Assembly: GCA_016929245.1 (NCBI GenBank) | Contig: JAFGJE010000187.1 | Span: 1 to 33,076, forward strand | Length of the DNA: 33,076 bases | DNA from: Phycisphaerae bacterium | GTDB lineage: Bacteria > Planctomycetota > Phycisphaerae > SM23-33 | Reading direction: 5' to 3' | Shown here: positions 13,035-32,724 of the stretch, piece by piece | Layout of the letters: each line of letters starts with the position of its first letter | How positions within the stretch are numbered: the stretch's first letter is position 1 | Position numbers and translations under genes: made by a program | Notes under the pieces: generated by a model | Databases searched by the model: none | Told to the model about the DNA's origin: nothing | Seen by the model: the letters and a program-made list of their open reading frames with translations, nothing else

Positions 13035-14162
13035 TCATTTCGCCGGTGGGAAGAGGAATCGTCCTTCGCGGTCGATGTATCCGAGTTTGTCGTCGACCCA
13101 GACCGCCGCGAATCCCCGGCGGAAATCGTCGGCGCGGTCGAATTTCGGGGGGATGACCGTCTCGCCTTCCGCGTCGATATATCCCCACTTCACGCCGCCG
13201 TCGCCGGTGTCGGGGAACGTCAGCACCGCCGCGAGTCCTTCGTGGAAGTCGTTCGCCTGGTCGAATTCCGCCCCGATGACCATCGTTCCTGCGCGGTCGA
13301 TGTATCCCCACAGGCCGGTGTAGCTTAATCGCACCGCCGCGCGGTTTTCCGAAAATTCACGCCCGGCCTGGTATTCCTTCGAGCGAATGACGGTTTGTCC
13401 CCGCGTGTCGATATACCCGCAGATGGCGGGTGGATTTTCGGCGTCGCGTTGGGACGTCGGTTCCGACAATTGCACCCACGCCAATCCCTCGGAAAACGCG
13501 CCGGCCGCCTGGAATTGCGGTTCAATGACGCTCTTGCCGGATTTGTCGATGTATCCCCATTGTCCACCGCTGACGCGCCGACCGATTCGTTTGCCCTGGG
13601 TCATCACCGCGGCCAGTCCCTCGGAAAATCGCCCGGCGAAGGTGTATTGCGGCGCGATGACAACCTGTCCCGCCGCGTCGAGGAATCCGAATTGATCCTG
13701 ATCGCGGAAGGCCGCCAGGTTTTCGTGGAATCGCAGGGGGGTTGCGTATGTCATCGGAAGGACGGTTTGCCCCGCGGTGTCGATCAGGCCCCATTTCCCG
13801 TTGAGCATCACGCTTAAACGCCCCGCCGAAAATCCGTCCCGGTCGACGGCCTCGAACTGCGGCGAAATGACCATGCGCCCCGTTGCATCGATCACGCCCC
13901 ACAAGCCTTTGCTTTGGACCGCCGCGAAATCTTCGGAGAATCGCTCCGCCCGTTGATATTGCGGGCGGATGGCGACGTTCGCGTCGGCGTCGATGTATCC
14001 CCACAAACCGTCCTGCACGATCGGCAGGGGGGTGTCAGCCGTTGGCGCGGCGGGTTCCTCCGGGGACGCCTGCGAGGAGGGCGGAGGCGATTTGGTGTCC
14101 TTCTCGCATCCCGGAGATACGAGACTGAATACTATCGCGATCAGGAGAAACGTACGAAACAT
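13035..14162 (-). CDS. WG-repeat lipoprotein
   Basis: Many repeats of the form LWGYIDADANVAIRPQYQRAERFSEDFAAVQSKG. Lipobox-like SLVSPGCEKD. Start trimmed to MFRTFLL (AAGGAG upstream); the longer track ORF runs into an intergenic repeat. Confidence 0.9.
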   Translation of the reverse strand: MFRTFLLIAIVFSLVSPGCEKDTKSPPPSSQASPEEPAAPTADTPLPIVQDGLWGYIDADANVAIRPQYQRAERFSEDFAAVQSKGLWGVIDATGRMVISPQFEAVDRDGFSAGRLSVMLNGKWGLIDTAGQTVLPMTYATPLRFHENLAAFRDQDQFGFLDAAGQVVIAPQYTFAGRFSEGLAAVMTQGKRIGRRVSGGQWGYIDKSGKSVIEPQFQAAGAFSEGLAWVQLSEPTSQRDAENPPAICGYIDTRGQTVIRSKEYQAGREFSENRAAVRLSYTGLWGYIDRAGTMVIGAEFDQANDFHEGLAAVLTFPDTGDGGVKWGYIDAEGETVIPPKFDRADDFRRGFAAVWVDDKLGYIDREGRFLFPPAK

Positions 14163-14181
14163 GAATCTTCTCCTTATCCTT

Positions 14182-14280
14182 GTCATCCTGAGCGGAGCGC
14201 AGCGAAGTCGAAGGACCTCACGCATAGCTACCCGTAAGGTCCTTCGACTTCGCTCGAAGACTCGCTCCGCTCAGGATGAC
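14182..14280. repeat. Palindromic intergenic repeat, GTCATCCTGAGCGGAGCG family
   Basis: gtcatcctgagcggagcg ... cgctccgctcaggatgac, with AAGTCGAAGGACCT / AGGTCCTTCGACTT inside. Confidence 0.9.
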
Positions 14281-30357: not shown

Positions 30358-31293
30358 TTAGGCTTTTCGTAACGTAATCAGCGGCAGTTCCGGCCGGCAG
30401 TTGAAGCGGATGGGGATTTGGACCATCCCTAACCCGCGCGAGATGAAGACCGGGCATTGCGGGCCTTGCACCCAGCCTTCGGCGTATTTGCGGTACTGAA
30501 TCGGAAGGATCAACGGGCCGATCAGCGGCAGCCGCACCTGCCCGCCGTGCGTATGCCCGCAGAGCATCAGGTCGATCCGCACGCCGGGCGGCGTCACCTC
30601 CGCGTAATCCGGGTTGTGACACAAGACGATCCGCGGCACGTCGTCCGGCACGCCCTTCAACGCCGCCTTCGCGTCGGGCCGGGGATCGCGCGACCACACG
30701 TCGTTGACGCCCGCGAGGCACAAAACATCCCCACCGCGACGCAGCAGAACGTGGCGATTCGTCAGCAGCCCAATCCCCGCCGACTCCAGCGAAGCCACGA
30801 CCCCCGGCGCGTTGGTCCAGTAATCATGATTGCCCAGGACGGCGAACTTTTCCTTCGCGTGCAGGTCGCGGAATACCTCCACCAGCGCCGAGGTGATCGC
30901 GTCGGCACGGCTGACGTAGTCGCCGGTCAAGGCGACGATGTCGGGCTTCAGATCGTTGGTCATCTCCACGATCCGCCGGGCGTCGTCGAAATCGGACCAT
31001 CGTCCGACGTGGACGTCGGTGATCTGCGCGATCGTCGCGCCGTCCCAGGCGGCGCCCAGGTTCGGAAGGGAAAAGTCGTGTCGCGTGACCACAAAGCCGT
31101 GCGGCTCGATCGCCAGCGCGTCGACGGCGCCGGCCGTCACCGCCGCTCCGCCGGCCAGCGCGGAATATTTGATAAACTTCCGGCGCGTGAGTTTTTTCCC
31201 CTTCGGCGGGGGGGATTCCTTTTCCGGTTCGTCCTGCAGGGGGGGCATTTCGCTCGGAAGGAATGCGTCAGGTTGCGAGTGGGAGTTCGTCAT
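30358..31293 (-). CDS. Metallophosphoesterase (YaeI/YkuE-like) with Tat signal
   Basis: KLTRRKFIKYSALAGGAAVTAGAVDALA; AQITDVHVGRW, ALTGDYVSR, AVLGNHDYW, LCHNPDY, LMLCGHTHGGQVRLPLIG. Confidence 0.95.
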   Translation of the reverse strand: MTNSHSQPDAFLPSEMPPLQDEPEKESPPPKGKKLTRRKFIKYSALAGGAAVTAGAVDALAIEPHGFVVTRHDFSLPNLGAAWDGATIAQITDVHVGRWSDFDDARRIVEMTNDLKPDIVALTGDYVSRADAITSALVEVFRDLHAKEKFAVLGNHDYWTNAPGVVASLESAGIGLLTNRHVLLRRGGDVLCLAGVNDVWSRDPRPDAKAALKGVPDDVPRIVLCHNPDYAEVTPPGVRIDLMLCGHTHGGQVRLPLIGPLILPIQYRKYAEGWVQGPQCPVFISRGLGMVQIPIRFNCRPELPLITLRKA

Positions 31294-31389: not shown

Positions 31390-31433
31390 TTATTCCCGTT
31401 CCTCGCCGGATTTCCACCACCCGAAATGCGCGC

Positions 31434-31481
31434 AAAAAAATGGGCGACAATGCAGCTTGCTCAAGGCCGCGATTATCGCCC
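31434..31481 (-). terminator. Intrinsic terminator at the 3' end of the candidate ncRNA
   Basis: Minus strand GGGCGATAA...TTGTCGCCC, then ATTTTTTT; the internal GU pairs are compatible only with minus-strand RNA. Confidence 0.75.
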
Positions 31482-32160
31482 TTCGCCTTGGTAGAGGTCC
31501 CACTCCATAATGGTTTATCCCGACACGAAAATCCGGAGGAGGAGAGAACCGGATTTTACTCATGGGCGCTCATCTCCATGAGCTTTCGTTGCCTGGTAAA
31601 CGCAACCTCTACCCTCAGGAATCTCGGATCCAAACAATCCCGGGAGGAGAGATGGGATTGTATTCCTCGATGGGCGCTCATCTCCATCGTTGGCAGGACC
31701 GTTGTCGAGATTCCATTGAGAGGTTTCTCAAATTCCTTTTTTTCAAAAGTTCTGAGCCTCTCTCGCCAAGACGGTTTCGTTATCTGGTAGGGTAGGGAGG
31801 TAACAGGAAACCGTCTATATCCACTCCTCAACGTCAAAGCTCCTCGACATTAAGTCATCCTGTAAGTAGATACACTATTCACTTGTCAGCTCGCAGCCGA
31901 ACATCGTATGGGGGCTTTGAGCCATTCTCACTCCGCTTTACCTATATGCAATGCTCGTGCCAGCAGGGTTTTCCTCGAGACGATTTTTCCCGCGAAATTC
32001 TATCGCATTGCAAATGAGACAATTACAACCGCGAGGCGTTCACGGGATGTATTTACCATTCGAATGCGAATCCTGTTGCTTGACGCAGTTTGCTTCACGA
32101 AGCGTTTTCGCTCCTGTCGCGTGTGTCGCGTTTTGCGACGTGGAAAACTACAGGAGCGAT
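31434..32160 (-). ncRNA. Candidate large structured non-coding RNA; 5' end uncertain, best supported part 31434-31816
   Basis: Two tandem domains closed by perfect 9-bp helices (GGAATCTCG/CGAGATTCC and GGTAGAGGT/ACCTCTACC). Each contains a hairpin with a conserved 10-nt loop and a hairpin with a conserved C-rich 12-nt loop on differing stems. Further helices upstream, and a U-tract terminator at 31434-31481. Confidence 0.6.
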
Positions 32161-32286: not shown

Positions 32287-32724
32287 CTACACCGCCGCCC
32301 CGGTCGCCATGACCGTGTTCGCCTGTTTGGCCCCGGTGAACAGGGCAAACCAGTCTTCCGTGCTCATGGGAGGCAGGAAGACCATGGCTCCCTGGGATCG
32401 TGCCGCCGTCTCCACGGCCTGGTTACCGTGATGCGAGATTACCGCCTGCAGCGAACCTCGCCAGCGGCGTCGCGCCCAGCTCAGCAGGCGCGTCAGACCT
32501 TCGGCGCCGCCCGTGTGGGACAGCACCAGCAAGTCCATCCATCCGGCTGGAGGATTGGCCAGAAAGTGTAGAGGCTGACTGTACGTGATTACACGTGGTC
32601 TATCGAGTGTCAGGAGTGCCTGATACAGGCAATCGGTACCCCATCCGTCCATACCCACGAGGGCAATAGACACTCGACCGGCCGTCGGCTTGCACGACAA
32701 GCCTCGCAGGCTCCTCGGTCGCAT
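32287..32724 (-). CDS. Small hypothetical protein, possibly receiver-like alpha/beta fold
   Basis: VSIALVGMDGWGTDCLYQALLTLDRPRVITYSQPLHFLANPPAGWMDLLVLSHTGG...; GGAG about 9 nt before ATG. Family uncertain. Confidence 0.6.
   Translation of the reverse strand: MRPRSLRGLSCKPTAGRVSIALVGMDGWGTDCLYQALLTLDRPRVITYSQPLHFLANPPAGWMDLLVLSHTGGAEGLTRLLSWARRRWRGSLQAVISHHGNQAVETAARSQGAMVFLPPMSTEDWFALFTGAKQANTVMATGAAV

Follow-up and report, generated by a model that had tools for sequence, protein, structure and literature searches.

The window (i.e. the whole stretch of 33,076 nucleotides that was analysed) raises the question of whether an interval of 383 bases near one of its ends encodes a large structured RNA and, if so, what such an RNA does. 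An earlier note, made from the sequence alone, had proposed two homologous modules on the minus strand, and all of the helices and loops that it named were found there. These comprise the closing helices of module 1 (31714-31706 with 31626-31618) and module 2 (31613-31605 with 31498-31490), both AGATGAGCGC loops, both CTCCTCC loops and a third hairpin (31816-31769). Five perfect hairpins (at least 6 bp, loops of 8-13 nt) occur in the 383 bases as compared to a mean of 0.56 after shuffling (P = 0.003), and two identical loops were obtained in none of 2000 shuffles. Single-sequence folding gave an energy that was only mildly unusual (z = -1.9), so proof was taken to be comparative, i.e. from homologues and covariation.

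Extent and architecture of the RNA

DNA and covariance model searches for homologues supported an RNA unit of ~415 nt (31430-31845, minus strand) that runs from a 5' GAGGAGC through a GCGC beyond a T-run. This unit is slightly longer than the interval first noticed, starting at the conserved GAGGAGC (31845) and ending with a terminator-like hairpin (31481-31442). The order of parts along the RNA is GAGGAGC(C), variable hairpin, module 1, module 2, AAGGCGAAGGGCGA, 3' hairpin, T-run and GCGC. Within the 5' element (31839-31845), AGGAGC was present in 14/22 upstream regions versus 0.8 in shuffles. This element is complementary to the CUCCUC of the hairpin II loops; both partners are nearly invariant, and the pairing is only possible. 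The variable hairpin (31769-31816) is a predicted fold, with counterparts in homologues that vary in both sequence and length.

Module 1 (31618-31714) is a three-way junction closed by GGAATCTCG/CGAGATTCC, a helix that was 90.6% paired in the alignment of this module. Hairpin I (31668-31689) carries the UGAGC loop AGAUGAGCGC, supported by this alignment and by motif counts, and hairpin II (31634-31661) carries the C-rich loop AUCUCUCCUCCC, supported by the same alignment. Module 2 (31490-31613) is likewise a three-way junction, closed by GGTAGAGGT/ACCTCTACC and supported by covariance model R1, which was built from alignment A1 (module 2 and the 3' hairpin from 23 copies), and by pair counts. 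The hairpin I loop of this module (31559-31582) is again AGAUGAGCGC, with UGAGC invariant in 23/23 aligned homologues, and the hairpin II loop (31528-31557) is UUCUCUCCUCCU. The proposed homology of the modules was borne out, as R1 also matched module 1 of the same copy (31552-31720, E = 2e-7).

The most conserved stretch, AAGGCGAAGGGCGA (31476-31489), is nearly invariant and forms, according to the alignment, a single-stranded linker and the 5' arm of the 3' hairpin. This hairpin (GGGCGA...UCGCCC, 31442-31481) has a covarying inner stem and presents a third UGAGC loop, UUGAGCAAG. A pseudoknot that would pair AAGG with CCUU of this 3' loop was considered and rejected, being not conserved among the homologues. 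The T-run TTTTTTT (31440-31434) is followed by a conserved GCGC (31433-31430), and the combination T6-GCGC is nearly private to the RNA, with 21 of 23 sites (21 loci) located at an RNA 3' end. GCGC follows the T-run in nearly all copies; its conservation is unexplained, since it would be absent from the RNA if transcription stops in the T-run.

Covariation and loop conservation

Both-side changes were observed in 34/46 pairs of module 2 and the 3' hairpin, with a covariation score of 0.376 as compared to 0.08-0.15 for slid versions of the structure and with no equal in 500 shuffles. For module 1, which was aligned separately (A4), compensatory changes were present in 21/26 pairs and the score was 0.405 versus 0.08-0.145 for slid versions. 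The alignments lean towards the given structures, a bias that the slid controls only partly address. Reading frames on the RNA were rejected, as opposite-strand frames clash with the covariation.

The earlier note had inferred loops that are conserved on stems that change with pairing kept. This pattern was recovered among the homologues, where both modules covary and loop identity exceeds stem identity: the hairpin I loop had 94% identity (100% for its UGAGC) and the hairpin II CUCCUCC 96%, the latter on unrelated stems, versus 72% and 63% for the stems. UGAGC was the most enriched 5-mer (111 versus 13.6 expected), with a mean of 3.1 per copy over 36 copies versus 0.4 expected. It occupies the hairpin I loops of modules 1 and 2 as well as the 3' loop, and many copies have another in a 5' GAUGAGCC. 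CCUCC occurred 82 times versus 13 expected. Such repetition of UGAGC and CCUCC is what a scaffold with multiple binding sites would be expected to show. On the evidence of aligned homologues, an independently folded RNA of ~415 nt with a fold under selection has been demonstrated.

Distribution and novelty of the RNA

The DNA search produced matches in 29/60 relatives and two further copies in the genome of the window. With R1, the RNA was detected in 31/38 genomes of the order to which the window belongs (Planctomycetota, Phycisphaerae). No other genome with a match was found by R1 among 398 of the class, nor any other with a true match among 395 of the phylum, the one exception being a weak match (G571, another class of the phylum) that lies inside an asparaginase-type gene and was judged false. 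These large-set searches used stricter filters and may have overlooked weak distant relatives. When 85,462 species genomes were scanned with a sequence pattern and the results checked with R1, strong matches occurred only in metagenome-assembled genomes labelled Planctomycetota, Planctomycetales, Phycisphaerae or Phycisphaerales (e.g. SM23_33, 4484_123, UBA12270 and fen_1343). Other matches to this 46-base pattern, such as those in Streptomyces and Bradyrhizobium, had little similarity beyond the selecting pattern and low R1 scores, and were attributed to chance. Searches of phage, plasmid and viral collections gave no match to the RNA; viral contigs with an 18-base match had no covariance model support. 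The RNA is vertically kept in one order of Phycisphaerae.

No Rfam 15 family reached its curated gathering cut-off at the RNA in either the window or the homologue loci, and a weak match to mir-9465 was ascribed to chance. No description of this RNA in planctomycetes was found among the papers searched. Among the outcomes that would have undermined the earlier proposal of an undescribed class were an Rfam match and loss of the helices and loops in homologues; the Rfam scan was without a match, and the 9-bp closing helices and the loops were kept. That this is a new structured RNA family is scarcely open to doubt; its existence is near certain, and what remains inferred is the mechanism. Separately, a match to Acido-Lenti-1 RNA (RF01687) just over its gathering score was observed ~1.8 kb downstream of one RNA copy, on the other strand (L048:9672-9717, minus strand).

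Association with a pseudoreceiver gene

A gene for a ~145-aa protein (family A3; 32287-32724, minus strand, in the window) lies directly upstream of the RNA on the same strand in 26/26 RNA-bearing genomes with enough flank. This association is new with respect to the earlier note, from which it could not be seen. A Pfam and NCBIfam scan of the protein gave no family above cut-off, and no ANTAR domain was detected with Pfam (five proteins scanned, none above cut-off). An AF2 model made for this protein family (pLDDT 85) has a receiver fold, with receivers as the best PDB matches (E = 4e-6, TM 0.64/0.79), and a profile search agreed (NtrC1 receiver, E = 8e-4). Among 26 sequences, the position of the phospho-acceptor Asp, where strand 3 ends (column assigned from the predicted fold), is occupied by A/G/S/T/V/I, and the Lys at the end of strand 5 is mostly R. 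The protein was therefore classed as a pseudoreceiver.

Co-occurrence was examined in 38 genomes of the order, 29 of which have both RNA and protein, two the RNA only, two the protein only and five neither (Fisher P = 8e-4, ignoring relatedness). The pseudoreceiver was not found elsewhere in the class, outside the order. In the two protein-only genomes (L140 in G004 and L141 in G026, the pseudoreceiver match in G026 being weak), a gene whose product has, from its sequence, a PEP-CTERM-like C-terminus stands in the place of the RNA.

Further upstream, 11 RNA loci contain a sigma54 activator with GAFTGA and a Fis-type HTH and without a receiver (domains checked in two), usually accompanied by a divergent HAMP-HisKA kinase (two kinases checked). 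The contig of the window ends too early to show this region, and no activator is near the RNA in L041, L042, L053, L056, L144 and L145. The RNA is the last element of a regulatory cassette that often consists of histidine kinase, sigma54 activator, pseudoreceiver and then RNA.

Solitary extra copies are located away from the cassette (L038, L039 and L127). The own-genome copies L039 (G000:C57:23669-23832) and L038 (G000:C6:6612-6782) are without a pseudoreceiver, and one of them is downstream of fliM/fliN- and motB-like genes. Which genes follow the RNA, and in which orientation, varies from locus to locus. Some of these neighbours recur (dapA-like in L043, L047 and L056; rplU-like, in opposite orientation, in L049, L051, L052 and L054), which suggests an ancestral locus. 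In the window, a metallophosphoesterase gene (YaeI-like, TAT signal; 30358-31293, minus strand) is downstream of the RNA on the same strand, and the RNA copies of L042 also have a gene of this type after them. Elsewhere in the window, a gene at 13035-14225 (minus strand) encodes a protein of ~396 aa with repeated WGxIDxxG-like units.

Tandem arrays and predicted transcription

Many RNA loci are single-copy. Six close tandem arrays (L050, L052, L053, L056, L144 and L145), representing at least four independent lineages, have a T-run in the last copy only, and widely spaced copies (L040, L041 and L042) have one each. In the simplest reading, made without RNA data, the T-run would be a terminator and the close arrays appear to be single transcripts. 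As the 3' hairpin is kept in array-internal copies without a T-run, even where it is not terminating, it is also a structural domain. Transcription of the RNA from the minus strand of the window, stopping at its own 3' hairpin and T-run, is strongly suggested by these predicted signals in the absence of expression data.

TTGACA boxes resembling a -35 element were present 16-48 nt before the 5' element in 7/22 upstream regions versus 0.4 expected, which suggests a putative ordinary promoter for the RNA in some loci. A consensus scan for sigma54 promoters before the RNA gave best sites that were no better than those of shuffles; control of the RNA by the adjoining activator has therefore not been shown.

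Proposed function and alternative explanations

The RNA is probably one arm of a regulatory system that has not been studied before. Copies that stand alone, away from the cassette, and the varied downstream genes lead to the inference of action in trans, and a trans-acting regulator tied to the pseudoreceiver is, on balance, the favoured role. In the proposed mechanism, the C-rich loop of each hairpin II (CUCCUCC, an anti-Shine-Dalgarno sequence) would contact the ribosome-binding sites of mRNAs, while the repeated UGAGC loops would dock a protein partner. The adjoining pseudoreceiver is the first candidate for this partner, and its docking would couple the RNA to the two-component/sigma54 signal. 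Anti-Shine-Dalgarno loops combined with UGAGC docking must be regarded as a tentative mechanism, less likely than not. As a whole, a trans-acting multi-loop regulator in a signalling cassette is the best explanation, with inferred mechanism and a probability of roughly 0.45. It draws on the covariation with fixed loops, the repeated motifs, the linkage and co-occurrence with the pseudoreceiver, the upstream sigma54 activators, the single T-run of the close arrays and the signs of action in trans. Against it stand the lack of expression data, the absence of an identified target mRNA and a pseudoreceiver-RNA interaction that is only inferred. Receiver folds are not, as a rule, RNA-binding. The CUCCUCC loops could, moreover, pair with the 5' GAGGAG of the RNA itself instead of with messages. 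The failure to find a sigma54 promoter, and the six loci without an activator near the RNA, also count against it.

Part of this explanation has a parallel in the cuckoo/CIN1 RNAs. In Rhodobacter ccaF1-CcsR1-4, a small protein gene is followed by several homologous RNAs in one precursor with one 3' terminator (PMC10253847), and the alpha-r14/NfeR1 RNAs present an ultraconserved anti-Shine-Dalgarno loop, CCUCCUCCC, on very different stems (PMC10746234). The family described here likewise has a small protein gene and conserved C-rich loops on different stems; tandem copies in a single transcript with one terminator are supported by sequence alone in six arrays, while many loci have one copy only. 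It differs in being a ~400-nt multi-junction RNA with UGAGC loops from Planctomycetota rather than Alphaproteobacteria; its loops have only the shorter, related CUCCUCC and not CCUCCUCCC, and the protein encoded upstream is a receiver-fold one without a match to DUF1127.

A different reading, unlikely but still to be taken seriously, is a protein sponge in which the repeated UGAGC loops would mainly titrate one RNA-binding protein, as in CsrB/RsmZ or CrcZ, and the C-rich loops would be merely structural, pairing with the 5' GAGGAG. The enrichment and invariance of UGAGC would fit this reading, as would the interchangeable context of this loop between hairpin I and the 3' hairpin and the multiplication of sites by the arrays. 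Like the CsrB/RsmZ sponges, this RNA has multiple hairpins and one loop motif that recurs among them. The motif, however, is UGAGC and not GGA, no known protein has such a site, and the GGA of hairpin I is not kept (4/21 have A instead of G41, with a compensating change), so that CsrA/RsmA can be ruled out as the target. The kinase-activator-RNA order and the extra copies elsewhere also resemble CbrA-CbrB-CrcZ of Pseudomonadaceae, where histidine kinase, sigma54 activator and regulatory RNA are syntenic and the paralogous CrcY and CrcX are located elsewhere (PMC8871633). Unlike CrcZ, the receiver here is a separate phospho-dead protein, the repeated motif is different and no sigma54 promoter was seen before the RNA. 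Hfq was absent from 21 genomes (positive controls were found), so the criterion of Hfq/Crc sequestration is also unmet.

Rather less plausible is a cis element at the 3' end of the pseudoreceiver mRNA that would stabilise, or feed back on, its message, with the extra copies as by-products. The RNA is directly downstream of this gene on the same strand in all primary loci, and in L023 the reading frame runs into the 5' part of the RNA. This reading is weakened by the gene-less solitary copies in the genome of the window and in L127, by the TTGACA boxes before the 5' element in several loci and by the existence of arrays with 2-3 copies in tandem.

It is improbable that the RNA assembles without protein, as ROOL, GOLLD and OLE do, through kissing loops between copies that would produce a homo-oligomer. 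In favour of this reading, the fold is ornate, with several junctions and with invariant loops on stems that change, and the palindromes GCGC and GAGCUC occur in some hairpin I loops; ROOL, GOLLD and OLE are likewise large ornate bacterial RNAs with invariant loops. Some members, however, lack these palindromes (UGAGCACC, UGAGCGACC), the RNA is smaller than GOLLD and there was no match to the sequences or Rfam models of these families. ROOL and GOLLD are associated with phages and with tRNA islands (PMC12286853), whereas this RNA is linked to a signalling protein, had no match in phages or plasmids and comes from a window that holds no tRNA. A cis-acting riboswitch or leader can practically be discounted: a terminator at the end and a phosphoesterase gene next on the same strand in the window would allow it, but no one conserved downstream gene was present in the loci read, genes and orientation vary, tandem arrays exist and the terminator follows the last copy whatever the next gene.

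As defining features of each of the cuckoo/CcsR and CrcZ families fail, the RNA belongs to neither and may, at best, work like them. Returning to the trans-acting regulator, a bolder version is that the RNA is joined with the phospho-dead receiver in a single signalling ribonucleoprotein, in which the pseudoreceiver would bind the UGAGC loops and relay the histidine kinase/sigma54 signal while the C-rich loops would switch translation of target mRNAs; this version is speculative and, on present evidence, unlikely.

It is rare to find a structured RNA this large that covaries strongly and is missing from databases. RNA regulation in planctomycetes is little known, and Hfq was absent from the 21 genomes scanned here. 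The fixed link to a receiver-fold protein without a phosphorylation site provides a partner that can be tested directly, and may be an instance of a signalling protein that works via RNA rather than DNA or protein output. If the ribonucleoprotein version were true, the output module of this two-component system would be an RNA.
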